Source: Branchiostoma floridae | Lineage: Eukaryota; Chordata; Leptocardii; Amphioxiformes; Branchiostomatidae | Assembly (NCBI RefSeq): GCF_000003815.2 | Contig: NC_049990.1 | Span: 17,822,828-17,886,827 of the forward strand | Reading direction: 5' to 3' | Length of the DNA: 64,000 nucleotides | In this document: positions 15,003 to 52,300 of the stretch, piece by piece | Layout: the number at the start of each line of letters is the position of its first letter | Numbering within the stretch: position 1 is the first letter of the stretch | Translations under genes and position numbers: made by a program | Notes under the pieces: generated by a model | What the model was told of the DNA's origin: nothing | Databases searched by the model: none | Seen by the model: only the letters and a program-made list of their open reading frames with translations

Positions 15003-18000
15003 TCAGGCACAAGCTAAGATAGACACAATTACCTGATGCCATCGGGAATCCCACCAAGTTGCCATGCAAACTTCCACATAGCGTTCTGTACGTCGTTTGA
15101 CAGTTAGTTCTATCCTATGCCCTCCAGCAAAGCTGTCCTCGAGGATAGAGCTGAGATGAACGATTGGTGCGACATGAAAGGGACTTCTGAAGTGGTAGTG
15201 TTTGCACACTTGTCGCCAGGCTCTGGCAGTGCTGTGGAGAATATGCTCACCTCCAGATCCACTATCCACCTTTCCAACTTCACCTGAAATGGTATTTTCC
15301 AACCCAATTAGGTCTTCTTAATTCAATGACCCCTAGTGGGTTTTTTTGGAACTACAATGGCTGATATCGTTTCAAAGTTTTACAGAGAATAACTCAAGAA
15401 CATGTTGACAAATTGTGAAGATTTTTTGTATGTAGATAGCCTAAGTGATGACACATATAAAATGCTAATTATGTAAATCAAAGGAAAGTTCATAAATCTG
15501 CTGCATTCCGTGATAGGAGTCTCAGACTTGTCACATGTAATGTGGGAAATGGGAGTAATGTTGATAGATGTCAACTATGCAAATACAGTAGCTATATTTC
15601 CACAGTGGTAAATGATGGAAATTTCACACTAGCAGCATTTTGAAGCTAAGTAAAAGTGATTAAAAAGGAACATAAGATATGATTATTCATGCATGTCAGG
15701 GTCACACCTACAGGTACATACTTTTTGAGGAAATGCAACAATGTCCTTCTTTACTTAGATACAACTTTCAGACTTGGAACGATGCTATTTGGGTAGAGAA
15801 GATGATCAACTGAGACAATTTATACAAATGCAAACTTATTTGCATAGTCTGGTAAATACAATACTTAACTCAATAAGGTTCACATCATTTGGAGAAGGTA
15901 TGAGGTCATGGAACTTTATTTTTGGTTCTAGACAGTATTAAAGATCAAGGAAATCATTATAAGTTTCAATGTACTCACATCGCCGGATGTATGTCTGTGG
16001 AGCAGGACCAGTGAGACCTATGGCACCCTTCTGTCCCTTGGAGCCTGCAGAGCCATGGTCACCTTTAGGACCGACTGGGCCACGGTCACCCTTCGGTCCC
16101 TGGATAGATGTACCGGTCAGGCCGCGGTCACCTTTCTGTCCCTTTGAGCCGGAGTAACCACGATCACCCTTGGGTCCCTGGATAGATGTACCGGTCAAAC
16201 CACGGTCACCTTTCTGACCCTTGGATCCAGGGTAGCCACGGTAACCTGTCAGGCCACGGTCACCCTTCTGACCTTGAATAGAAGGACCGGTCAGTCCGCG
16301 ATCACCCTTCTGTCCCTTAGAGCCTGAGTAGCCACGGTAACCCCTAGGGCCGGCTGGACTGCCCTTTGCTCCCTGTCAGTGTGAAAAGTACATTTTTATT
16401 ACCTTTGCCAGAATGGCTAAGGTTATGTTTTAGGATTGTGAGTCTGTGTGTCTGTCTGTCTGTCTGTGTGTTAACAGTATAACTCAAGAAGCCTTTGATG
16501 GATCCCAATAATATTTGGTAGGTGGGTAGGGGTCGGGAAAACGAAGGTCAAGTTCGATAATGGGCCCCCTAGCGGCTTGCTAAGGTACTGCAGCAAAACC
16601 TCAATTTTTTTTATCTCGTGTTCTGGACCTGCTGTGGTTATGATTTTTGAGTGGTAGATAGCCCTTGGGGCAGAGAGTAAGTGCTTTTAGTTTGGACCCC
16701 CTAGCGGCTTGTTTGGAACTGCAGTCGCCGATTTCCTTTCAAACTTTGGACGAGAATAACTCGAGAACGTGTTGATGGATCGTCATGGTTTTTGGTATGT
16801 AGATAGCCCAAGTAACAATGTACACAATGGAATACCAATTATGCAAATCAGCAACTAATTTGCATAATTAATGAGGAAAGTTTATAAATCCACTGCATTT
16901 CATGATAGGACTTTCAAACTTGTCACATATATAGATGAGGAAGAGAGAAATATCAATGCTTATTTATTATGGAAATGACGGTCTCATTTGCATAATTAAT
17001 GAGAAAATATAAACGTGTTGACGGATCGTCATGGTTTTTGGTATGTAGATAGCCAAAGGGAAGACTTACATGATGGAATTATAATTATGCAAATCGACTG
17101 CTAATTTGCATAATTAATGAGAAAAGTTTGTAAATCCACTGCATTCCTTACAGGACTTTCAAACTTGTCACATTTTTAGCTAAGAAAGAAGGAAATATCA
17201 ATACACATTTATTATGCAAATGATGATCTCAATTGCATGATTGATAGCAAAACATGAACGTGTTGACGGATCGTCATGATTTTTGGTATGTAGATAGCCG
17301 AAGTAAAAACTTACATAATGAGATACTAGTTATGCAAATTAACAGCTAATCTGCATGATTAATGAGGAAAGATAAATCCACTGCATTCCGTGATAGGACT
17401 TTCAAACTTGTCACATATGTAACTGAAAAAGATGGCAGAGAATAAGAGGTGAATGTTTGGGTCCGCTTAACGTCTTTTCTTGAACTGCAGGAGCCGGTTT
17501 AGTTTCCTACTTTGAAAGAGAATAAGGGATGAAAGGATGATCATGATTTTTGGTATGCTGATAGCTTAAATGATGCTTGATACAATTTAATATTATTATG
17601 TAAATCTAATCTGCATAGGGATCTAATTTGCATAAGCAATGGCGAAATGTTATGAACCAACTCCAGGCATATAAAATAAAATGTAATGAGTAACACATCT
17701 ATGTCTACAGACATCATTCTACATAACAAACCTGGTTTATTTGGCAAAGGTATGTGTTCGTTGAACTCTAGTTTTTGATTAAACTGATTTCCATGATTTA
17801 TGGCTAATAATGTTCACCTTCAATAAGCTTCATAATTGTGTAAGTGTGAAATTCCCGTCATTTACCAACTATGGAATTATGATATTTTCTCATCAATTAT
17901 GCAAATGAGGCCATCATTTGCATAATTTATATCTATTGACATTTCTCTCTCAGTTACATATGTGACAAACTTACATAAGTTTGAAAGTCCTATCATGGAA

Positions 18001-21000
18001 TGCAGTGGACTTATAAACTTTCCTCATTACTTATGCAAGTTAGCTGTTGATTTGCATTATTAGTATCTCATTATGTCAGTCATCTCTTAGGCTGACTACA
18101 TACCAAAAATCATGATGATCCATCAACACATTGTCAAGTTATTCTCGCCCAAAGTTTGACAGGAAATCGACTCCTGCAGTTCCAAAAAGTCGATAGGGGG
18201 CCCAAAATCACAGCACTTACTCTCTGCCCAAAGGGGAATCTACCACTCAAAAATCACGACCACAGCATATCCAGAAACGAGATATATCAAACTTGGAAGT
18301 TCTGCTGCAGTGCTTTAGCAAGCCGCTAGGGGGCCCATCATCGAACTTGACCTCTGTTTTTCTCACCCCTACCCACCTACATCACCCACTCATCATGATC
18401 CATCCAAGGCTTCTCTAGCTATGTAGTAGTAGTAGACTGGTTTATTCGTTTCACAGAAATACAAATGACACGAACTAAAAGCAACCTTGCAGCCGCCAGA
18501 GGAGGCTGAATTGTGCAGCTTTTCAATCACAATAGTGGCTTAGATGCAAACACAATTTAAAATTTAAATTACGAGTGCGAATTTCGACAAGTACATGTAC
18601 ACGATTTACTGCTATATACATATTTATCATATAAAAACTATGTCATTTATAAAAATCGTTTAAACTATTTACATCGGAATATAATGTACAAACACAGTCA
18701 GTTATTCACTGTTGACAATCGACAAGGGTACAGAGAGAATCTGAAGCACATTTCAACTTCAGTGTTACAGTGCGTTCAGAATGTTCAAAATTGAAGGGAC
18801 TGGGCTAGTGAGGTACCGCTTGGTACCAGTTGGCAGTTTGTAGGGCCGGGTGCGCCTGAGCTGCATGCTGTGTGGCTGGTTGCGGGCTGGGGGCACCCAG
18901 GGGGCATACCTTGCAGATTTGGATACTGCAAGGGCAAAGTCCTGGCACAGAGACAGTCTGCGTTCTGACAGGCGTTGGAGGCCAAGTGTGATAAGGGCTT
19001 CAGAGTACGACAAGTACTGACTCCCCAACATGATTCTGCAAGCCCGTTTCTGGATTCTTTCTAGACTGTTAGATTGACTTTTTGTGAGCCCTGCGTTCCA
19101 GCACGGAGCAGCATATTCCAATGTAGGTCTTATGTATCCACAATACACGGTGATGAGGTCAGCGCAAGTGAGACCCGCTCGACGAAGCCTACTGAGGAGA
19201 TACAGCCGTCTGCTGCCCTTTGACACCATGACATCAACTTGATCGGACCACCGTAAGTCTGACCGGATGTGCAAACCGAGTAGTTTGGCTTGTGTGACGA
19301 TGCCAAGTGTCTGTCCACCGAGGGTTAGAGGAGGCATCGCCGGGGGAATACGCATAAAACAAAAGTGCATTGCTTTACATTTTTTGGGGTTAAGCAACAT
19401 AGAGTTCTGTTCAGACCAAGTGTCAAGAGAGTCAAGGTCGGTCTGAAGATTAGATGGATTTGTCCCTATCCTAACTTCTCCAAGGTTTAAATCATCCACG
19501 TACTTCCAGTGAGGGTTATTGGTAGTGGGCGTGGCGTCGTTGATCATGGCTAGGAACACCAGTGGGCCAAGTAAGGTCCCCTGGGCCACTCCGGACGTTA
19601 GGGTTTCCCAGTCGGACATGGAATTCTGATACCGGACACGCTGTCTGCGGTTAGACATAAAGCTGCATAGCCATGGAATCAGTGATGCTCGTGTACCCAT
19701 GGATAAAAGTTTGTTGATGGCAGTGGTATGACACACACGGTCGAACGCCTTCGAAAAGTCTGTCAAGATTAATGTGCCAACGGTGCCAGCTATGCTGTTC
19801 ACACAGAGAGACAAAGGCTCAAAACATAGCCTTCTGGTGAAGGTAAGAAACAATTAATGTAATGTCTGTTTCTTATGAATTAAACCACTCAGCTAAAGTG
19901 GCATAGCGATTAGTCTTTTGATACATACAACTTTTAATCATTGTAATGGGCAACTGTGTAGATGTTCTGTACATGTATTACTCTCAAACTTTCTAGCCTT
20001 AATAAACATTACAGAATCAAACTCTAATGAGCATCAGGCATAGTATCTACTTCATTCATTTGGTATGTAAATCATTAACATGGAAACAAGTGGAATCCAA
20101 TGTATACCTTCACTCCCCACGGCCCTCTCAGGCCTCTCCATCCCCTTGGTCCTCTCAATCCCCTTACTCCTCTCAATCCCTGATCCCCCTTCTGTCCTTT
20201 GCACCCTACAGTGCACCCTGGAACATTAAAAGAATGGAAGATTTGGATGACGACTGCAAATAAACAATCCAAAATTTTTAGATTGTAAAACAAAAGTGCA
20301 CACATGTCTCTAGATCCGTTCTAATGGCCTGGTATGAAATCTAGTATGAACTTTTTCCTATATTGTAAATATAACAGTAACACAGGGTCCAACACCTGAT
20401 GGTAGATACTGACCACTTGATCTCTTTGTTCTGTCGTGCAGTTCATCCTCAAGTTGCCAGGGGGTGTCAGAATATGATGTATTATGATCTTGATCAACTT
20501 CATCAACAACACTGTCCGAAAACTCCGACTATAATTAAAGCAAAAGGAGCAAGGAAAAGAAGAAACGGTCAATACAATATATTACAGTATCTGATTGAAG
20601 TGATTCTATAACTGACTGTTAGATGAGGGTCTGCATGGGGGGGGGGGGGGGGGGGGGTCTTGGTAACGCTTAACGGTGAATTCAGGAGGCCCGGTAACGG
20701 TTAACGGTAAATTCAGGATGCCCGGTAACGCTTAACGGTAAATTCAGAAGGAGTTACAAAACATAACACCGTTGAAAGTAACATTGACGTGCATTTCTAT
20801 TTATACAACGCTAGAGTAGCTATATCAATGGGGGAAAATATCCGACTAATGACAAAGCAAAAGGTGCCCAGAACCCGGAGGAATGACAGGGACAATGTCC
20901 ATGACATCTGTAAATTGACGGAGGCAGAGTTCCCGGGCCTTCACAGAGACGGCGGCAGCAAATTTCTTATGGGGGGATTGAACTATTGTTTCAGCACATG

Positions 21001-22982
21001 GAGCGACGAAGGCACGACGCATCCCAGGGGGGTCCGGGGGTATGCTCCCCCGGGAAAATTTTAGAATCAAGACCCTCTTAAATGCTGTTTCCTGTATTTT
21101 CGGCAAATTTTGCCGACTGACTAAGCTAGGTTGATTTTGACATTTTCATCAAATTACACAATGATTATAGCTTTGGCCTCCACCCCCAGAGCCCCCGACA
21201 TATTTTACCATTTCGAGCTCAGAAGGCACGAGACGTTGCAATATAAGTCCGGGAAAATTAAAATATGGACCGTCTGAAACGCCATTTACTGCATTTTGAA
21301 GGACACATTTTGCTGTAAGACGAAGCTAAATTAAATGACATTTTATTAGAGAGAAAAGGTTTCTGTGCCTACCCACGCCCCTAACATATTTTCACCATGA
21401 CATCGTGAACGCCAAAGGCGCCATCCGTCGCAAGGAAGGTCCGAAGAAACCTCATTTTCTGCATTTTAGGAGTACTTTTTGCCCGAAACTAAGCTAAGTT
21501 TACACTGAAATCTGTATGAGTGATAAAGTTTCTGAGGGCGACGCTTCCGCAACATATTTTACCCTGTCCAGAGCCGAAGGCCGGGAGGCTCGGAGAAAAT
21601 TTTGAAATCTGGACCCTTTGAAACGCCATTTCCTGCATTTCCCGGGGTTCTATCTGGCATTTGACTTCGTGTGTATAACGGGTTACGAAGAATTTCTTGG
21701 TAACGCTTAACGGTGAATTCGGGATAACAAATAACGGTTAACGTTGAATTAAAACGACCAATAACGCTTCACGAAGAATATACCGATAACGATTAACGTT
21801 AAATTAGAGAGGGTCGGTAACGATTAACGGTGAATTAAAATGGCTCGTAACGCTTAACGGAAAAAGGCATGCAGACCCTCTTAGATAAGTTAAGATTAGG
21901 CTCCATACTGATTTGTGGTCGGTGGTTTTCAAAGTTACGACAAGAGTCAAGATTGCAAATTCTTCCTTTTTGTTATTTTATGTCGCGTTGAAAGACGAAT
22001 ATACGTGCGCTAGCTGTTGAGTCTGTTCCATGACATGATTGAGTTAATCGTTACATGTAACGTTACATGTAGATAAGACAAACTACGTCATGTGTCAATT
22101 ATCCATTTTCGCCCTCTGGCGCACCATTGTTTCATCTAGCTGTCGGACAAGTCGGACCAAGGACACCCTTGTTCGGACAGTACGGTTTTCCACCCTGTAT
22201 CTGCTCGGAGACTAACCTTTACCCTGTGACGCACGGCAGCGATGGAAACTTGACGAACAGGAAACAAATATTTGCAAAAATCCTGCTGATGTTATCAGTT
22301 CATGTCTAACCGTCAAGAAATGTTCTATATCGTTCTAGCTATAGACTAGGACCTCGCTAAGACTAGTAATCAAAGATCAAAACCACACTACTATATATGA
22401 TAGAGACACTATAGATCTATAAAAGTTGTAGATCTCCGACATTTCAATAGAGATAATTCAACTTGTTACCCTGTGCAATTTCTCAGCTAAAATAACTCGA
22501 CCTGAACCATTGATTTACGGCGGCAAAATAAAGCTGCCTACCTCTTCATTTGTGCTGAAGTTTTGCTCAAGATCGCCCCCGTCTTGGACCTGGGTCTCGA
22601 ACCTTTGTAGATGTTCCTGTAAGGAACCAGAGTCCATTTTCTCCTCCTCTAAGATTAGAAGTCGTTCTTTAAGGTCCAGAACCTCACTTTTCTCTTGGTC
22701 GAGCTGGGACTGGAGAGACGTTACCACAATTTCAGTGCGGCTCTTTTGTTCCTGTTCGACTTCCACCTGGATTTGAAGCGAAGATACCTGGATCTTGAGG
22801 GAAGATACCTCGATCTGAAGACTTGTGACGAGCGACCTGTCCTGCACGACGGCGACCAGCGACACGACCGACACGAGAGCCGCCGCCACCGAGAACACCG
22901 TCCCCAGCGAGCCGGACGTATCCGGGACACGCTCACGGTGCGGGCCGTCGCAGTCGCCACGTAGCAGCTTTTCTGCCCTCAT
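15003..22982 (-). CDS. Type II membrane collagen with C-terminal H-type lectin domain, five exons
   Basis: Exons in transcript order: 22982-22542, 20528-20414, 20205-20108, 16372-15979, 15283-15003. All junctions are GT-AG and in phase; 1329 nt, 442 residues. Start: ATG at 22982 with A at -3. Domains: short cytoplasmic tail (1-24), one membrane anchor (about 25-46, FSVAAALVSVVSLVAVV) and no signal peptide, so type II topology; coiled coil of repeated SLQIxVSSL-type heptads (47-137); acidic linker with a furin-type site RTKR|SS (180-183); Cys187 and a Gly-X-Y collagen stretch (about 186-343) rich in KGQKGDRG; H-type lectin domain (350-442) with GKVDSG, FRSPF, APIVHL and ATWWDS, close to the Helix agglutinin fold. 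Likely a trimeric cell-surface or shed glycan-binding protein. Domain names are from recognition; function is inference. Intron 3 holds a retrotransposon and intron 1 a 1.26-kb element. Confidence 0.8.
15330..15650. repeat. Dispersed repeat in lectin intron 4 (copy of the 16.4-kb family)
   Basis: Contains TTTTTGGAACTACAATGG, GAGAATAACTCAAGAACATG, TTTTTTGTATGTAGATAGCC and TCTGCTGCATTCCGTGATAGG, all shared with 16440-17450. It is the same orientation as that copy and shorter. Confidence 0.7.
16398..17750. repeat. Long dispersed repeat with internal tandem units
   Basis: Starts TACCTTTGCC and ends GGCAAAGGTA, matching 10-base inverted termini. It has a TCTG microsatellite at about 16446-16472, a CCCCTAGCGGCTTG motif (16566 and 16698), then three to four units of about 250 bases sharing GGATCGTCATGGTTTTTGG, TATGTAGATAGCC, TAATTTGCATAATTAATGAG and TAAATCCACTGCATT. 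No protein frame. Located in lectin intron 3. Confidence 0.7.
17760..18424. repeat. Inverted copy of the 16.4-kb repeat, interrupted by a LINE
   Basis: Read on the minus strand it follows the order of 16480-17450: CCAAGGCTTCTC-side motif, GGTGGGTAGGGG, GGGCCCCCTAGCGGCTTGC, ATTTTTGAGTGGTAGATA, GGAACTGCAGGAG, then TTTTTGGTATGTAG. Together the two copies form a large inverted repeat. The retrotransposon tail abuts it at 18425. Confidence 0.7.
18425..19853 (-). mobile_element. 5'-truncated non-LTR retrotransposon (reverse transcriptase and 3' tail)
   Basis: The minus-strand open frame 19853-18765 (about 362 codons, no true ATG at its beginning) encodes a reverse transcriptase: DFSKAFDRV (first catalytic Asp), GVAQGTLLGPLVF, the catalytic box KYVDDLN, and the later LLGLHI and TLEYAAPCWN thumb-side motifs. 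The endonuclease and the RT start are missing, so the copy is dead by 5' truncation although the remaining frame is intact, which suggests a recent insertion. The 3' UTR ends at 18425 in a CTA triplet tail, as in several LINE clades. The clade (CR1-like or other) was not assigned. It is inserted in sense inside lectin intron 3. Confidence 0.85.
20625..21880. mobile_element. TIR element, 1256 bp, with TAACGCTTAACGG subterminal repeats
   Basis: Ends GAGGGTCTGCATG and CATGCAGACCCTC are perfect 13-base inverted repeats, flanked on both sides by the direct repeat TTAGAT (20619-20624 and 21881-21886). Both subterminal regions carry several TAACG(C/G)TTAACGG(T) motifs. The centre holds about four degenerate units of 180-200 bp with CCATTTCCTGCATTTT-like blocks. 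A run of G (about 20637-20657) sits near the left end. No transposase frame is present. In lectin intron 1. Confidence 0.8.
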
Positions 22983-23335
22983 TTTTAGCAAATATTACTT
23001 GAGAAAACGCAGAATTTTTTTTTCAAATACTCCGTGACACTTTCAGACCTAGTCCGCTCTGCTGTGTTGCCTCCCCGCTACTGGGGTTTGCGAAGAACAC
23101 CTCAGGTATAAATTAATGGGGCGGGGATAGCGTACCAGCTCCTTTGTTTATTATCCATAACTGACAGTGTGACAGGCGTCATCAATAAAGGGGCAAAATG
23201 CGAGACTTCAAAATCTAAGAAAAGTTAGTTCAAGTCACTGGTTTTGTTAAAAACAAATTATCTCTGCCAACCAAGGACGCCCTGATGTTTCAACAATGTT
23301 TTCTTCGGCTGTACATTAAGGGAATATTTGTATAG

Positions 23336-23498
23336 AAGATTTGTGACGAGAGACATGCCCTATATGATGGTGACAAGCGACACGACGGAGACCAGAGCCG
23401 CCGCCACCGAGAACACCGTCCCCGGCGAGCCGGGCGTACCCGGAGCACGCTCACGGTGCGGGCCGTCGTGGTCGACACATAGCAGTTTCTCTGCTCAT
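23336..23498 (-). pseudogene. Decayed duplicate of lectin exon 1
   Basis: Read on the minus strand, from an ATG at 23498, this matches exon 1 of the lectin gene through the anchor segment (shared ACGGTGTTCTCGGTGGCGGC) and up to CTCGTCACAA. It has a 2-base deletion near the start, so its own ATG frame hits a stop after 15 codons, and the anchor frame ends at a TAG just after the membrane segment. The coiled coil is absent. Similarity continues upstream (about 23505-23680 against 22990-23170), so the 5' flank was duplicated too. No downstream exons are seen nearby; probably non-functional. Confidence 0.75.
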
Positions 23499-24987: not shown

Positions 24988-27900
24988 CTAGTAACTCGGT
25001 ATGATAGACGCTGTATGGTTCCATTCAGTCACCACTAACTGTCCGTCTGGCCCCACTGCGATGCCGTCAGGCCGTCCCGTACTGTCGGTGACGTGTCGGA
25101 GGAACTTCCCGCGGTTGGTGAACATCTCTAGCCGCTTGTTCCCGAAGTCAGCCACGATGATGTTTCCCGAACTGTCCACGCAGATACCACGAGGGTCCTT
25201 CAGCTGACCAACGCCACTGCCGTACCCTCCAAACTTGAACAAGAACGTCCCTTCTTGGTCGTATGCGTATACAGAGTGCGTGCCGTAGTCTGATACTAGG
25301 ATGTTGTCTTCCTTGTCCAAAGTGACGAACATTGGAGCGACCATGCCTTGGTTGATGCCAACCCTCCGTAGTTGGTAGCCGTCCGGTCGGAAAATCCTCA
25401 CTTCACCGCGCGTTCCAAACGTTTTGTCCGTCAAAGACACGATGACGTGGTCGTTGCGTGGGTTAACGGTGATCCCGCGGAATCTCACGGTATCCGGCAG
25501 GTGAAACTTCCCCAGCGGCTCGCCCTCCATGGTGTACGGGATCACAAACTCCGTCGACCAGTCGCTCCCCACTATCCACAGCAGGTCGTTGCCGTCTATG
25601 GCAATGTCGTCCGGCCGCATGGTCAGGTTTTCTTGTCCAGGCACAGTGGTCGGGATTTGTCGGATGGTCTCCCCCTTCATGTTGTGGACTTGGATTCGTC
25701 TGTTGTCTCGATCGGCCACGAAGATTTCGCTCTTCGGTGACACGGCGACTCCTCGAGGCCGGTTGAACTTTCCCGGGTCCGAACCTTTCCCGCCAAATAT
25801 GATCCTGTCAAGATGACGTATCTCCTCCACCTTGACTTCTTCAGGGGGAGGAGGAGCTTCTGCCTTTCCTTGTTGTTCGCTCTTAGACTTCGCGGCCAGC
25901 GCCCTCTTAAGATTTTCTGCGATGTTAGACGTGGCTCTCAACTCTTCGTCTTCATTCAGCATCTCGACCATTGCGCTCTTCTTCTTGCTTTTAGTGTCTG
26001 TCTTTCCTGTTGGCTTTTTCCCTTTGACGTTTTCCACATCTTCGCTCTTAGCTTGTACAGAATCTGTGCTGTCTGTGAAGTCTGTCTGAATCCCACGACT
26101 GACCGTCTTGAGTGGTTTCTTAGATTTGTTGTCGCCCATCGCTGTGTTTGAGTCTGCTTTTGTCTCAAGCGTTTGGCTAAAACTGTCTCCTTCTGTGTTG
26201 ACTCCTATTTCTACAGCTGAACTTACAGGTGTTTGAGTGTCTGACTCGTGTCGATACTCTGACTCTTTTTGTTGCTCTCTTTTACTCTCTGTTTCTTGGT
26301 CTGTTGTTATATTCGCCCTTTCTTTGATCTCACCGCGTACCTGGTCTAATTCTTCCAACAGGGTCGCAATAGTCGCGTTAGCTTCGAGAAGCCTGTTTTC
26401 TAAGGCATGTGGTTTCGGCGAAATTGCTCTTCCTTGTTTTCGCTTTACATCTTCTGAGCTTTCTAGAGCTAGGTTGTGCTTGTCCGGCTGTGGAGTTAGC
26501 GGACTTAACATGACACCCTCGTCTTCAAGAATGTCCGACTCCACAGATGTGCGACTCTTGTCGACTCCCTTCTCCTCAAACCTCTGCTTGGGGAAACGTT
26601 CCACGGGAGACGGCACGTCATCACTGTCCGACTCCGATGCCATCTTGGTTCTGTCGCGCTCTTCAGTCTTGTGTTTCTGTACCGTGGACTGCTTTGCGTG
26701 TGATGAGGTATCTTGACCCTTTAGACCCTCTGGCAACTGGCTTTTCTGTTCTTCGGCTTGGTGCTGTCGTACCTGGGCCAACTCTGGTGGAACGGTCGAG
26801 ACGTCTTCGTCGTCGGAAGATACGTCTTGGAACTCCGAACTGTCCGACTCCGATGAAGTGTTGAAGTACTGAAGAGGCTTGTCGTCTTGGTCTGTCGAAC
26901 CCTCGGACAATGGTGGACCCTGGTCCTCTGGATCAAACAACAGCACCTTGTTCAGGTCGTCATCTTTAGCTTTATCCTGCTGTGGTTTTGAACCTTCAGA
27001 CAATGTTGGTATCTTCCTTTCCTCGTGTTGTTCTGGGTTTGGCGACACACCTAGGATTTCTTTTCCTTCCGACAACTGTATCCCCTGGTTGTTCTTCTCT
27101 TTCTCAGCTTCGTACACCTGAACAGTGGGCTGTTCTGGAAGGGATTTGTCCTTCTGGTCCTTCTGACTTTCAGGCAATGGTATCGTCTTGCTTGTGGCAT
27201 GTTCTTTACCTTTGCGTTGATGTGTTGTAGACTGTATGTGGACAGGTGGGGCTTCCTGGTCCGTTGAACTACTGGACTCGCTCGCTTCATCATCTACATC
27301 CTCTAACGGCACATCATCGAACTCTGAACTACCCGACTCAGAGGAAACATCTCTCTCCTTCTCTATGGTCTTGTGGGGTAGAGCATTCTTGTCTTTTGGA
27401 TCTTCGGACAACGGTAGTACCTCGCTTGTTTCCTGTTCTTGACGTTGGCGCTGCTGTGTTATAGACTGTTTGTAGAGAGTTGAGCTCTCCTTGTCTTTCG
27501 AACTATCGGACTGGCTAGCTTCATCCTCGTCATCGTGTAACGGCACATCCTGGAATTCTGAACTGTCGGAATCAGATGAAACATCGCCTGTCTCCTTCTC
27601 TTTGATCTTCTCCTGTTGTCCCACAGGCTGCTTCGAGTGTGGTAAAACATCATTGTCTTCTGTGCTTTCTGACAGAGGCGGTGCCTGGGCTGTGTCTGGT
27701 TCTTTACCTTTGTGTTCCTTTGTGGGGACAGTTGGTGAGACTTTTTGGTCGGTAGTACTAACAGTATGGCTTGCTTTGTCGTCTTCATCCTGTTTTGGTT
27801 CGTCATAGAACTCTGATCCATCCGACTCTGGAGCTGGAACATTGCCTGTCTCCTGCTGGTCTTCCTGAACCACGGGCTTCTTTGTGTGGGGTAAGTCTTC

Positions 27901-30672
27901 CAGGCTTTCGGATGGTACAATTACCTGGCCCGGTTCGCTTTCTTCAGCCGGGTACTGCTCAACAGCAGACTGTTCTGCGATCGTGGAGACGTCCCTTTCT
28001 TCCGGACCTTCTGTCAAAAGTAGATCCTGGCTGGTATCGTTTTTGTCGGCCTGGTGCTGCTGGACAACGGACAGGTCTTGGAGGGTTGGAGCATCAAAGT
28101 GGTCTGCATCTTCAAAGAATGGTAGACCTTGCTGCAAGTCGCTAGCATGTTCTTGGGACTCTTTCTTATGGTGTGCGGTATCCTTATTAGACAGCTCTCT
28201 ATTGTTACGCATTCTGTGCTCTTCTTTGTCATCGTAAAACTCCAAGATATCTGACGACTGTAGAGCACGGCTGTTGTCTGGCTCTTCAAGCTGTTTCTGG
28301 ACTGGTGGAGGAAACTGTTGTGGTTGTAATAAGGAGTCTTGAGACACTTCTTTGACCTGACTCTTGCCTTGTTCTCCAAACTGCTCCTGTGGCCGTTCCA
28401 AGTCTTGTGGAACCTTCACAATGTCGGACGACTGCACCAGATTGACTCCATCGTTCTCCTCATCCTGTTTTTGCCCTGATGTTGGCTGTTCGGGCTGTGG
28501 TTCGTCAAAGTACTCCGGGGTGTCAAACCACAGCAGACTATCATCGTCGTCATTGTCTTCGTCCTGGCTGTCTTCCAATAATGACTGATCCTTGTGTGCT
28601 GAGATATCTTGATACTCCAAACCTTCAAACTTTGTCTGGTCTGGAACCTTGTCTTCTTGTCCCTGGGAGGGCTGCTTTAGAGGCTCTTCTGTGTCAGGTA
28701 AAGCGTCTTGATCATCTGGACTCGCTGTGCTTTGTGTTTGGTCTTCTTTCTTGTGTTTATCCTTGTCTTTCTGCTCTACTTTGACATGGAAGGCTTTGCT
28801 TGATGAAAAAGTATCCGAATGGTCAATCTTCAAGGATGATTCTTCTGGGTCGAGTGGAGCATCTTGGTAACCGGGAGTCACTTGCCTTTGCGTTTGCTCT
28901 TCCTTCTTTTTGTCATCCTGAAGTTGTACTGTAGAATGTTCTATGTTAGCGAAGCCGAAGGGATCGAAAGACTCAAGGATGGTCGACGATTCTAGGACCT
29001 TGTCTGCGCTCTGCTCTTTAGTTTCTTGTACTGAAGGCTCGTCTAGGTTTTGAGGAAGATCTTCGTGGTCTGGAGTCACTCTCATTTGTGGCTGATCGCC
29101 CTTCTTGTGCTTACCCTCATTCTCATGTTGTACAATTGGATCGAAAGAATCCAGAATGTCAGACGATGGTAGCACCCGGTCTTCTTCGTGTTTGTTCTCC
29201 CCTGGAAATTCTTCTGTGTCGAATAGAGCGTCATAGAAATCTGAACTTGCCGAAGGAATTCTTTGCGGCTGTTCGTTGTCTTTGTCCTCATCCTCGAATC
29301 CCGGCTGTCCTGTATACTGCTTTGTGTTATCCAAGGGGTCGAAAGACTCTAGAATGTCGGACGACTGTACGAGCTGGTCTTCGCTGTGCTCCTTTTGCTC
29401 TGAAGATTCTTCTTTGTCTGTGGGAGCGTCTTGGTAGTCTGGACTCACCTGTGCTTCGTCCTTCTTCTTGTAATCATCTTGTACTATGGGGTCGAAAGAC
29501 TCCAGAATGTCTGAGTCCGATGAATATAGGACCCGGCCTTCGCTGTGCTCTTCATACTGTGTATTCTCCACTAGAGATTCTTCTGGATCGGGTGGAAAGT
29601 CTTCATAACCGGGACTCACTTGCCTTTGCAGTTGGTTGTCATTCTTGTAACCAGCTTCATCCTCCTGTTGTACTGTAGAATGTCCTGTGTTCTCTTTGGG
29701 GTCGGAATACTCAAGGATGTCTGCCGATTGTAGGACCTGGTCTTCTGTCTCTTTGTTCTCCATTGTAGATTGTTCTGAGTCAAGTATGGGTACGTTCTCC
29801 TGCTGCACAAAGTCGTCTTGTTTGTCCGGAGTTGCTGCTTGTTGTAATTGATCTTTGTTTTCGCATTCATCACCCTCTTTCTGTTGTACTGTAGACTGTC
29901 CCATATTAACAATGGGGTCGAACGACTCCAGAATGTCGGCCGGCTGTAGGACCTGGTCTTCGCTGTGCTCTTCGGTTTCTGAAGATTTTTCTGACTCAGG
30001 CAGAGCCTCTTGGTTGTCTGAGGTCGCTGCCTGTTGTAATTGATCTTTGTTTTCGCAGTCATCATGCTCTTCTTTCTGTTGTACTGTAGACTGTCCCGTG
30101 TTAACAATGGGGTCGAAAGACTCAAGAATGTCGGTCGACTGTAGGACCTGGTCTTCCCTGTGCTCTTCGGTATCTGAAGATTTTTCTGCGTCAGGCGGAG
30201 ACTCTTGGTTTTCCGCAGTCGATGCCTGTTGTAATTGATCTATGTTCTTCTGTCTGTCTTCTTGTCCCTGTTGTTCTGTAGACTGTCCTGTGTTTTCTAT
30301 GGTGTCGTCAGACTGGGGAGGACCAGAAGGTTGTATAACCTTTCCATCGCTCTGTTTGTTCTCGACTGAAGAGTCTCCTGCTTTGGGTAGGGTGTCTTCC
30401 CGTCCCCGATCTTCGGACACCGGTGGTACCTCGCCGGCCTGTCCAGACTTGGTCTTCGTTTCCGCAGACTGTCCTTCTTGGTGGTCAGATGTTTCCTGGG
30501 TTTTCGAACTCTCGGTTGAACGTTTACGTCCAAAGGAGAACGTGAAAGTAGATCGGAATCTACCGCCGCTCTTCTTTGGACTCTTGTCCGGCACCTCGTC
30601 GCTTCTGTTGCCGCCCTCTGTCGTCTGCTGACCCGCTGAATCTGACATCCTTGAACGGCAAATGTCACTCAT
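24988..30672 (-). CDS. Giant intronless NHL-repeat protein with acidic repeat-rich N-terminus
   Basis: One open frame of 1894 codons with no intron. Residues 1-1415 are Asp/Glu/Ser/Gln-rich and probably disordered. They hold about eight DILESFDP-type motifs (about 180, 247, 318, 388, 438, 506, 564, degenerate at 809) in units of 50-71 residues with VQQ and QLQQ blocks, then four to five SSEFQDVP-type acidic units (about 957, 1044, 1121, 1281, 1352). A short coiled coil follows (about 1423-1450, NRLLEANATIATLLEELDQ). Residues about 1620-1894 form an NHL propeller of about six blades (FNRPRGVAVSP, IFVADRDNRRIQVH, KDPRGICVDSSGNIIVADFG, RPDGIAVGPDG), as in TRIM2/3/71-class proteins, but no RING, B-box or filamin domain is present. 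The second ATG (residue 9) has the better context (A at -3) and may be the true start; an upstream 5' UTR exon is possible. Molecular role unknown; NHL domains usually bind protein or RNA. Confidence 0.85.
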   Translation of the reverse strand: MSDICRSRMSDSAGQQTTEGGNRSDEVPDKSPKKSGGRFRSTFTFSFGRKRSTESSKTQETSDHQEGQSAETKTKSGQAGEVPPVSEDRGREDTLPKAGDSSVENKQSDGKVIQPSGPPQSDDTIENTGQSTEQQGQEDRQKNIDQLQQASTAENQESPPDAEKSSDTEEHREDQVLQSTDILESFDPIVNTGQSTVQQKEEHDDCENKDQLQQAATSDNQEALPESEKSSETEEHSEDQVLQPADILESFDPIVNMGQSTVQQKEGDECENKDQLQQAATPDKQDDFVQQENVPILDSEQSTMENKETEDQVLQSADILEYSDPKENTGHSTVQQEDEAGYKNDNQLQRQVSPGYEDFPPDPEESLVENTQYEEHSEGRVLYSSDSDILESFDPIVQDDYKKKDEAQVSPDYQDAPTDKEESSEQKEHSEDQLVQSSDILESFDPLDNTKQYTGQPGFEDEDKDNEQPQRIPSASSDFYDALFDTEEFPGENKHEEDRVLPSSDILDSFDPIVQHENEGKHKKGDQPQMRVTPDHEDLPQNLDEPSVQETKEQSADKVLESSTILESFDPFGFANIEHSTVQLQDDKKKEEQTQRQVTPGYQDAPLDPEESSLKIDHSDTFSSSKAFHVKVEQKDKDKHKKEDQTQSTASPDDQDALPDTEEPLKQPSQGQEDKVPDQTKFEGLEYQDISAHKDQSLLEDSQDEDNDDDDSLLWFDTPEYFDEPQPEQPTSGQKQDEENDGVNLVQSSDIVKVPQDLERPQEQFGEQGKSQVKEVSQDSLLQPQQFPPPVQKQLEEPDNSRALQSSDILEFYDDKEEHRMRNNRELSNKDTAHHKKESQEHASDLQQGLPFFEDADHFDAPTLQDLSVVQQHQADKNDTSQDLLLTEGPEERDVSTIAEQSAVEQYPAEESEPGQVIVPSESLEDLPHTKKPVVQEDQQETGNVPAPESDGSEFYDEPKQDEDDKASHTVSTTDQKVSPTVPTKEHKGKEPDTAQAPPLSESTEDNDVLPHSKQPVGQQEKIKEKETGDVSSDSDSSEFQDVPLHDDEDEASQSDSSKDKESSTLYKQSITQQRQRQEQETSEVLPLSEDPKDKNALPHKTIEKERDVSSESGSSEFDDVPLEDVDDEASESSSSTDQEAPPVHIQSTTHQRKGKEHATSKTIPLPESQKDQKDKSLPEQPTVQVYEAEKEKNNQGIQLSEGKEILGVSPNPEQHEERKIPTLSEGSKPQQDKAKDDDLNKVLLFDPEDQGPPLSEGSTDQDDKPLQYFNTSSESDSSEFQDVSSDDEDVSTVPPELAQVRQHQAEEQKSQLPEGLKGQDTSSHAKQSTVQKHKTEERDRTKMASESDSDDVPSPVERFPKQRFEEKGVDKSRTSVESDILEDEGVMLSPLTPQPDKHNLALESSEDVKRKQGRAISPKPHALENRLLEANATIATLLEELDQVRGEIKERANITTDQETESKREQQKESEYRHESDTQTPVSSAVEIGVNTEGDSFSQTLETKADSNTAMGDNKSKKPLKTVSRGIQTDFTDSTDSVQAKSEDVENVKGKKPTGKTDTKSKKKSAMVEMLNEDEELRATSNIAENLKRALAAKSKSEQQGKAEAPPPPEEVKVEEIRHLDRIIFGGKGSDPGKFNRPRGVAVSPKSEIFVADRDNRRIQVHNMKGETIRQIPTTVPGQENLTMRPDDIAIDGNDLLWIVGSDWSTEFVIPYTMEGEPLGKFHLPDTVRFRGITVNPRNDHVIVSLTDKTFGTRGEVRIFRPDGYQLRRVGINQGMVAPMFVTLDKEDNILVSDYGTHSVYAYDQEGTFLFKFGGYGSGVGQLKDPRGICVDSSGNIIVADFGNKRLEMFTNRGKFLRHVTDSTGRPDGIAVGPDGQLVVTEWNHTASIIPSY

Positions 30673-49300: not shown

Positions 49301-52300
49301 TCGTGGTCTGGCATGTACCTGTACCTTGGGTGATACAGACTATACCGTATTGTATTCTACATTGTATATGTACTAATGGATAACCAAAAGACATTGTAGA
49401 CAAGGTGTGACTTGACTTATTGAGTGTTGTTTTTTTCCCTACAGGTGAGGTTGGCCTGTTCTACCTGATCTTCTACTCCTGCCTGGCATGTTTCTTCGCC
49501 ATCACCCTGATTGTCTTCTACCAGACTCTGAGCTGGGAACAACCAACCTACTGGGCCGGCAAAAACTACATGAACATCCCTAGTAAGTACCAGCCTGGGT
49601 ACCATCAGGGTAGTAGTTCGCTTCTGCTAGCCGTCTAGAGACCTGCACATTCAAACCTTTTGGTGGTGATGTCAGTTAATGAGAGAATTAAGGAATGGGT
49701 TCCAGAGCACTCGTTCAATGACAACAGGCCCTCCCACAAGCGGACGAAGGGATTCCTTAATTCGCTCATGTGTAGGGACCAATCAGCGTCCTTGTTCAAA
49801 ATTTGGATGATTTGGATGAGATGTCAGGGTTCCCAGACAGAATAGCAGATAAGCGACTGCAGGGATAAACAAGTCCACTAGCCCTATTGTCCAGGGCAAG
49901 TGAAAGTGCTGTTAGGGCAAGTGCATGTCCTACCCCACTTGTCCGATCGGGCAAGTAAGATTTTTCCATTGATTTTAGTGCAATTTTGATATACTTGTTA
50001 CCTTTTACAGTCATGACATCAAGCAATTGTCTACAGAGAATTCCATTGCTGGAAGTGAAAATGCATATACTAGTAACAGTGACATTTGAATTTTGGGCAA
50101 GTGAAGAATTGGTCCGGGCAAGTACATTTTTTATGTGCTTGCCCGATAGGACAAGTGGATTTTAGAAAACTTGTTCAACCCTGGACTGTGTATTCTACTG
50201 GAAAGGGTGTCAGTCCTTAGGACGGGACGTTAAGCCTTTGTCCACTGATCATTGTACTTGAGTTGAATTGTACAAAATGAGTTGAATTTCCCCGAAACAA
50301 TGAACCTATAAATACTGTACATAGCGTCTGTCTTCTCAGTCATGACCAGTGGAAAAGTAACTCTTCAGTGAGCTACACAAGATTACTCTTTCTTGAATAA
50401 AGACTCTTTTTACACAACCATTGCTTTATTCTCACCAACATTTCGGTGACCGTCTGTCACCTTCTTCAGGGCAATTCTGACTGGCTCACAGAATAAAGCA
50501 TTGGTTGTGTAAAAAGAGTCTCTTTATTCAGTGACGTACCAACCTGATGAATCTATTCACGCACTCTTTGTTTCTTTCATGACAGTATGTTGTTTGTTTG
50601 TTTGTTCCTCAGGTGTGGGGTTCCGCCCTAACATCAGAACCGAGGGTAACATCGCCTTCAACCCCACCCAAGCCAAGTCCTACGACAAGTACATTAAGAT
50701 GCTGGACAGCTACCTGGCACCGTACAAGTGAGTCAGAAACTCTAAATGGTCATGAGCATACAGAACTATCCATTCTGTTTTAATAGAGCCCATGTGTTAA
50801 AGTAAAGCTTAAGTTAGAATTGAAAAACCTATGGTACTATGCTAAATATATTACAACGTAAAGTTTTCTCTAGTTTTACATAACTTAGAATTCAGTGCGC
50901 TCTCACTGTTTGAAACTATTTTAAAGGAAAGCTTAACTTACCTGAAAAACCTACAATACACTGCTAAATGTACCACAAAATTTTACATAAGTCTGTCAGA
51001 ACTCAGTTTGCCCCTACTGTTTGAAACGGACTGGTTGCATTTGTTGACTTCTGATATATATTAATGGAGCTTTTTGAGCTGGCATTCTTTGTAGACCCTC
51101 CCAGCATTGCCCGCAACATTGGAACACTGGCTAACTTGTTGATGCCCTCTAATTCATCTGAAAATTCCTCAAAGTTAATCCTTTGGAAAGCCAGCTCAAA
51201 AACCCCATTCATACAAATCAGACCTTATTTAGACATACCACCACGTGACATCATCAAACTTGATCTGTCAATCAAGTTGCTGTCAGGACGGTGGGAATTT
51301 CAAATGGTAGAGCACTAAGTTTTGACGGACTTCGGTGAAACAAGTGAACTTGACTTTGGGGTATATTATCATGTTACAGTAGGCATTTCAGTTTTAAGCT
51401 AAACTTTCCCTTAAATCTTGCATGAAAAAGATTTGGTTTTGAATATTCTGGTACATTTCGTTAGACTAGAGTTGCTCTGACGCTATAGTTTGGATGTCTT
51501 TCAGTAACGCGACCGCGGACCCCTACGTAGACTGCACCTCAGGCAAAGCCCCCAAGGGGAAGCTGTGCCAGTTCGACATCTCTCAGCTCGGCCCCTGCGC
51601 CACATCTCCGTATGGATACGACCAGGGCAAGCCTTGCATCCTGCTCAAGTTCAACAGGGTAGGTTTCTACTGTAGTGGTAACGTAACTGTGAGTCCAATA
51701 GTCCAATTGTCCCGGGCAAGTAAAAATACTGATCGGGCAAGTGCATGTCATATATACTTGTTACTTTTCACAGTCATGACATCAAGTAGTGGTCAACACA
51801 GAAAAATAGAGCTGATGATAAAAGAATTATATTGTTGAAAGTGAAAAAAAAACATAATGTAAATGTTTGTTTTTTGGGCAAGTGAAAACTTGGTTCGAGT
51901 AAGTATTTTTTACTGTACTTGCTCAATAGCACAAGTGAATTTTAGAAAACATTATACCCTGGACAGAGAAGGTCAGTAAAAGATATTGATAAAAACTTGT
52001 CACAAGATTGTAATAAAGTGTACACTAGGTTTGAGATGTCCCTGTAGCTCAAGTGGTAGCAGCATCACAGTTAAACTGCTGGGTCCAAATAGGTCCTGGG
52101 AAAACACGATTCAATCCTCAGGGCTACACCCGTCTTTCGAAAGGACTACAAAATTGGAATCCAGTGTTAAATGAAATGCCTTAAGCATGTTTAGGAGCTA
52201 GCAGTCCCTCCCTACATACATGTAAATATACCCTGCAGCTGAAACAGTAAGGAAACTTGCTGACCTAATTGCCGAAAGGAACTACAAGGGTCTGAAGAAA

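Follow-up and report, generated by a model that had tools for sequence, protein, structure and literature searches.

H-type lectins are trimeric proteins with a beta-sandwich fold, and the Helix pomatia agglutinin and discoidin I/II are soluble, without a membrane anchor or a collagen region. The collectin CL-P1 (COLEC12) has a stalk. It is a transmembrane protein that also serves as a scavenger receptor, and it occurs in a shed form, the mechanism of which is called unknown in the accessible part of the source (PMC6131309). For the MACIT collagens, cleavage by a furin-like convertase directly ahead of the first collagen domain, with shedding of the ectodomain, is described in the accessible text of two papers (PMC4678570, PMC7848082), the former of which reports MACITs as not identified in Branchiostoma floridae and B. 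belcheri. Ectodysplasin and the colmedins are type II proteins with collagen and a secreted ectodomain (PMC7848082, accessible part), and gastropod HREPs are described in the accessible text as combining immunoglobulin-like and H-type lectin domains (PMC8878817). The available portions of PMC9846536 and PMC5549309 name H-type lectin and collagen domains in separate proteins or lists. No description of a type II anchor, furin site, collagen and H-type lectin in one protein was found in the accessible portions of the open-access literature covered, PMC8878817, PMC9334734, PMC9846536 and PMC5549309 included, and an unremarked entry for this combination may well exist in public protein databases.

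This combination is predicted for a gene of the cephalochordate B. floridae, here called W, and for two sister genes, A and B, on the same contig. Judged from the encoded proteins, W is probably a sheddable type II collagenous lectin, similar to CL-P1 but with another head, and released by furin in the manner of the MACITs.

Layout of the window gene

W occupies C12:17837830-17845809, within the 64-kb stretch of DNA that was analysed (the window, C12:17822828-17886827; exon positions are counted from its first base). It comprises five minus-strand exons, all open, with GT-AG at each junction and phases 0/1/0/1. The original prediction had these five exons joining in phase, which is borne out by the open frames, the splice ends and the compatible phases, and we hold the five-exon model to be correct with high confidence. 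Exon 1 (22542..22982) supplies the start codon, 27 residues ahead of a hydrophobic 19-mer that represents the anchor, followed by a polar stalk, and closes with the donor GAG/gtaggc. Exon 2 (20414..20528) encodes an acidic stalk that ends in WQLEDELHDRTKR/SS, with the codons of the RTKR furin-type site at 20421..20432 on the minus strand. Exon 3 (20108..20217) starts with CTV, followed by 11 Gly-X-Y triplets from GCK and with likeness to GCTGCKGDKG of sister A. Exon 4 (15979..16372) continues the Gly-X-Y pattern with interruptions, contains internal repeats of 42/78/96 bases and ends in ..IRRC, and exon 5 (15003..15283) carries the H-type lectin domain and the stop codon, at 15003.

The length of 442 residues given originally is correct for the exons as then written, with an exon 3 acceptor at 20205. 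This acceptor was replaced by one 12 bases away at 20217 (ttccag/GGTGCACTGTAGGGTGC), because GCTVGCKG of W then matches GCTGCKG of sister A. Position 20217 is the most likely start of exon 3; it adds CTVG and brings the total to 446 aa. Splice matrices place the acceptor at 20205 in the 79th and that at 15283 in the 70th percentile of AGs, which makes both of them weak, and a strong alternative donor (98.6th percentile) lies inside exon 5 at 15033. Use of this donor with a further downstream exon was rejected; the site is probably unused because the last exons of A and B continue to the same, homologous ending (..AC[AL]-stop). AATAAA is absent within 1.5 kb of the W stop codon, and ATTAAA is present 6 bases past it.

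The hydrophobic 19-mer of W begins at residue 28 (Kyte-Doolittle 2.53). Over the same length, A reaches 2.63 from residue 22 and B 2.77 from residue 18, each of the three proteins having a hydrophobic anchor near the N-terminus, as in type II collagen-like membrane proteins. The type II anchor proposed at the outset is backed by this segment and by the two sister genes, and it is very probable that W is anchored in this way, with the orientation predicted from the protein sequence. RTKR occupies residues 180-183 of W, and the motif-bearing sequences are WQLEDELHDRTKR, WRLEDELHDRSKR and WRLEDVLHGRSKR across the three genes. The furin-type site that had been predicted as RTKR/SS is retained as RSKR in both sisters, and R[ST]KR is thus kept in all three genes at the same place, just ahead of the first Gly-X-Y triplet. 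The motif makes furin-type release likely.

The Pfam Collagen family matched the W protein with an E-value of 3.6e-22, in agreement with the Gly-X-Y collagen read earlier from exons 3 and 4. The number of triplets differs considerably between the genes, with 182 unbroken in A, 21 in B and 50 in W, where they are divided over five blocks. The predicted coiled coil gained no support: the heptad score, a crude one, was matched or beaten by 85, 945 and 52 of 1000 shuffles for W, A and B, respectively, and is without significance. The remainder of the predicted layout, from anchor through furin motif and collagen to H-type lectin, gains strength from the two sisters.

The lectin head and its proposed use

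A profile search of the last exon against Pfam H_lectin (PF09458; cut-off 24 bits) had been put forward as a check on the original prediction. Exon 5 of W alone fell short of the cut-off at 18.6 bits (E 0.0021, profile positions 3-66 of 67), and the whole protein scored 16.0 bits; the homologous exons of A and B exceeded it, at 35.0 and 30.4 bits. A profile built from the three lectin exons reached discoidin-2 with an E-value of 1.8e-6, discoidin-1 with 0.0089 and the snail agglutinins with 0.06-0.12. In direct comparison with the Helix pomatia agglutinin, exon 5 of W beat 4993 of 5000 shuffles in global alignment (4990 in a repeat) and 4987 in local alignment (4991 in a repeat), and BLASTP aligned only 22 residues with the snail agglutinin, at an E-value of 2e-4 for this single comparison. 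A search of exon 5 alone against the PDB found no H-type lectin; its sole match, polyhedrin (E 1.5), was taken as chance. The three lectin exons had no match in PHROGs, and the C-type lectin domain (Lectin_C) had no match in the W protein at E-values up to 1. Because the sisters pass the cut-off and the trio profile reaches discoidin-2, we read the head of W with high confidence as an H-type lectin domain by homology, even though the W copy falls short of the Pfam threshold on its own.

The sugar contacts of the snail agglutinin (G24, D26, R63, W83, H84 and Y89) are kept in part. The equivalents of R63 and W83 are invariant in W, A and B, while that of H84 is W, H and A and that of Y89 is H, V and V, in the same order. 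The G24/D26 loop of the snail agglutinin is hard to align with the trio, and the contacts other than R63 and W83 (D26, H84 and Y89) are mostly changed. Since two contacts are invariant and the others vary, sugar binding is plausible, and we rate it as somewhat more likely than not.

Taken together, these features suggest a mode of action. Collagen chains and H-type lectins are both trimeric, and for that reason the type II membrane protein would be expected to assemble as a collagen trimer whose stalk carries, on the side away from the membrane, one H-type lectin head per chain. A furin-type convertase would sever the collagen from the membrane-proximal stalk and so release the ectodomain. The tethered form may then act as a glycan-binding surface receptor and the shed form as a soluble multivalent lectin. 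Together they would most likely serve to recognise glycans, whether microbial or self, on the cell surface and in the body fluid. An immune role is put forward tentatively.

Alternatively, W might be a ligand that is shed for a matrix or signalling role, in the way of the MACIT collagens, the colmedins and ectodysplasin, and its H-type domain could provide protein-protein contact or trimer formation with no reading of glycans. The poor conservation of the sugar-contact positions beyond R63 and W83 is compatible with such a ligand, and where type II collagens bear other heads, their ectodomains are secreted and act in the matrix or in signalling (PMC7848082, accessible part). Moreover, the role could be vacant, given that the accessible text of PMC4678570 reports MACITs as not identified in two Branchiostoma species. 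We regard this explanation as possible but doubtful; the head comes from a lectin family, and beyond A and B no fewer than 32 H_lectin matches are present in the genome, with 21 in a cluster on contig C3, as would be expected of recognition genes.

These matches come from an H_lectin search of the whole genome (513,431,437 bases in 431 contigs), which returned 34 in total, A and B included and W's own exon missing among them. The 21 on C3 lie at 4.43-4.78 Mb, a region with at least 21 H_lectin exons, mostly of the GESG..WMACA type. Set against Mollusca and Brachiopoda, where the family is not expanded according to the accessible part of PMC8878817, the cluster amounts to a large expansion. No run of at least five Gly-X-Y triplets was found near 26 of the 32 other H_lectin matches, in a scan of 21 stretches (20 of 10 kb and one of 3.2 kb) of which some contain runs of N and the flanks are uneven.

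A speculative link to complement also deserves mention. The hexapeptide PGKNGA, which resembles the motif by which collectins and ficolins bind MASPs, occurs once in A and is absent from W and B. Given this motif and the 182 unbroken triplets of A, even coupling to the lectin complement pathway is conceivable.

Sister genes and the integrity of W

A genome search with exon 5 of W recovered, besides itself, sister A (C12:17998684-18002697, plus strand, 804 aa) and sister B (C12:18073055-18075772, minus strand, 308 aa), at 46 and 44% identity and E-values of 1.9e-15 and 1.8e-13, along with one further, doubtful match (E 0.34). Exon 2 of A, which encodes the furin motif, gave three matches, one per gene; the three loose candidates of that search were all scored. 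The exon ends of A and B are all GT-AG, and their introns are all shorter than 0.7 kb. Exon order and phases are common to the three genes: an anchor and stalk exon (phase 0), a stalk exon with the furin motif (phase 1), a short Gly-X-Y exon (phase 0), a Gly-X-Y exon ending R[QR]C (phase 1) and a lectin exon that runs to the stop codon. Sister A has one additional phase-0 exon of 1413 bases, Gly-X-Y throughout. The 471 residues of this unbroken exon (C12:18000168-18001580) consist of near-identical GPKGDTGEP-type units, and we infer that it has apparently expanded recently. In sister B, the acceptor of the short third exon adds the non-collagen stretch KLSIVCNTPGLPSRC, and the B model is the least sure of the three.

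Exon 2 and the lectin exon of W outscored 2000 of 2000 shuffles when aligned with either sister. For exon 1, shuffles scored as high in 352 (A) and 278 (B) of 2000 cases in local alignment and in 46 and 924 in global alignment, and its resemblance to the first exons of the sisters is one of place, phase and topology, likeness in sequence not being supported. Between A and B, dN/dS was 0.37 for exons 1 and 2 combined and 0.48 for the lectin exon. The lectin exon of W gave 0.51 and 0.49 against A and B, with pS near 0.6, which speaks for mild constraint at best. The corresponding values for exons 1 and 2 of W, 0.48 and 0.37, are not to be trusted, because exon 1 is alike only in place, phase and topology.

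These comparisons bear on the state of W itself, which might be a decaying family member beside two working genes. Its H_lectin score is the lowest of the three, its Gly-X-Y region is interrupted and a decayed copy of exon 1 adjoins it; on the other hand, its five exons are open with intact splice ends, and exon 2 and the lectin exon are strongly alike to those of the sisters, which makes decay improbable. It is very improbable that the joined model is wrong and that the anchor-collagen exons form one gene or isoform and the lectin exon another: intron 3 is 3.7 kb long and harbours a reverse-transcriptase remnant, but A and B repeat the exon order, strand and phases with introns that all stay below 0.7 kb, and R[QR]C closes the Gly-X-Y exon adjoining the lectin exon in each gene of the trio.

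The surroundings of the W exons contain several other features. The decayed copy, a partial tandem duplicate of exon 1 that includes its 5' flank, is situated at 23309..23494 on the minus strand and has an in-frame TAG and a 2-base deletion directly past the ATG. The reverse-transcriptase remnant (RVT_1, E 2e-14; 18766..19853, minus strand) is outside the protein, and intron 3 also contains a 245-base tandem repeat in 2.7 copies at 16765-17418. Further along the window, a single open frame of 1894 residues on the minus strand (24988-30672) encodes NHL repeats preceded by a long region that is acidic and repetitive, and an exon of a Na/K-ATPase beta subunit is found on the plus strand at 51470-51838 (E 1.3e-10). 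An Rfam search of the 64-kb window gave no match.

Exon 1 of W also had 14 weak matches clustered on contig C4 at 7.83-8.10 Mb, all on the minus strand, and one more on C19 (E 8e-5 to 0.007). The C4 cluster may represent a separate family whose anchor and stalk are similar. An anchor exon common to other heads was considered, but shared coil-like composition is the likelier cause because exon 1 of sister A, searched at E-values up to 0.1, finds neither these matches nor exon 1 of W. Among the 150 scored of 1565 Lectin_C candidates, none was located at C4:7.83-8.10 Mb.

Comparison with known systems

Should glycans be bound, a third head, unrelated to the others, would have been combined with collagen in recognition molecules, and the type II collagen layout with furin shedding would serve to present a lectin in a lineage that is reported to be without MACIT collagens. 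It is conceivable, at a speculative level, that collagenous lectins were assembled independently a third time and that W, A and B form a class beside the collectins with their C-type head and the ficolins with their fibrinogen head: membrane-tethered, furin-releasable and H-type, built in the cephalochordate line and acting in innate recognition. As amphioxus is a tractable basal chordate, the three genes make the use of one lectin as receptor versus soluble protein addressable.

W was originally likened to collectins and ficolins. It shares with collectins a collagen region that leads into a C-terminal lectin head, and it differs from them in having no Lectin_C match. CL-P1, a transmembrane collectin and in function the closest analogue, did not figure in the original list. 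CL-P1 and W both have a cytosolic N-terminus (predicted in W), a collagen region and a C-terminal lectin head (PMC6131309, accessible part); CL-P1 differs in its C-type head, as opposed to the H-type head of W, and W has a plain furin motif. With the MACIT collagens XIII, XXIII, XXV and COL-99, as far as their accessible descriptions go, W has in common the type II anchor and the furin motif ahead of the first collagen domain, and its interrupted collagen is a further likeness. The MACITs end in a conserved 34-residue C-terminus, with no lectin mentioned in the accessible text, whereas the C-terminal part of W is a lectin domain. Ectodysplasin and the colmedins bear a TNF-like or olfactomedin head in place of an H-type lectin. 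Gastropod HREPs resemble W in joining the H-type domain to a new partner and differ in that the partner is immunoglobulin-like domains instead of collagen, with no anchor mentioned in the accessible part of the source (PMC8878817). With the Helix pomatia agglutinin and discoidin I/II, finally, W shares homology of the domain itself, and the equivalents of R63 and W83 are invariant throughout the amphioxus trio.
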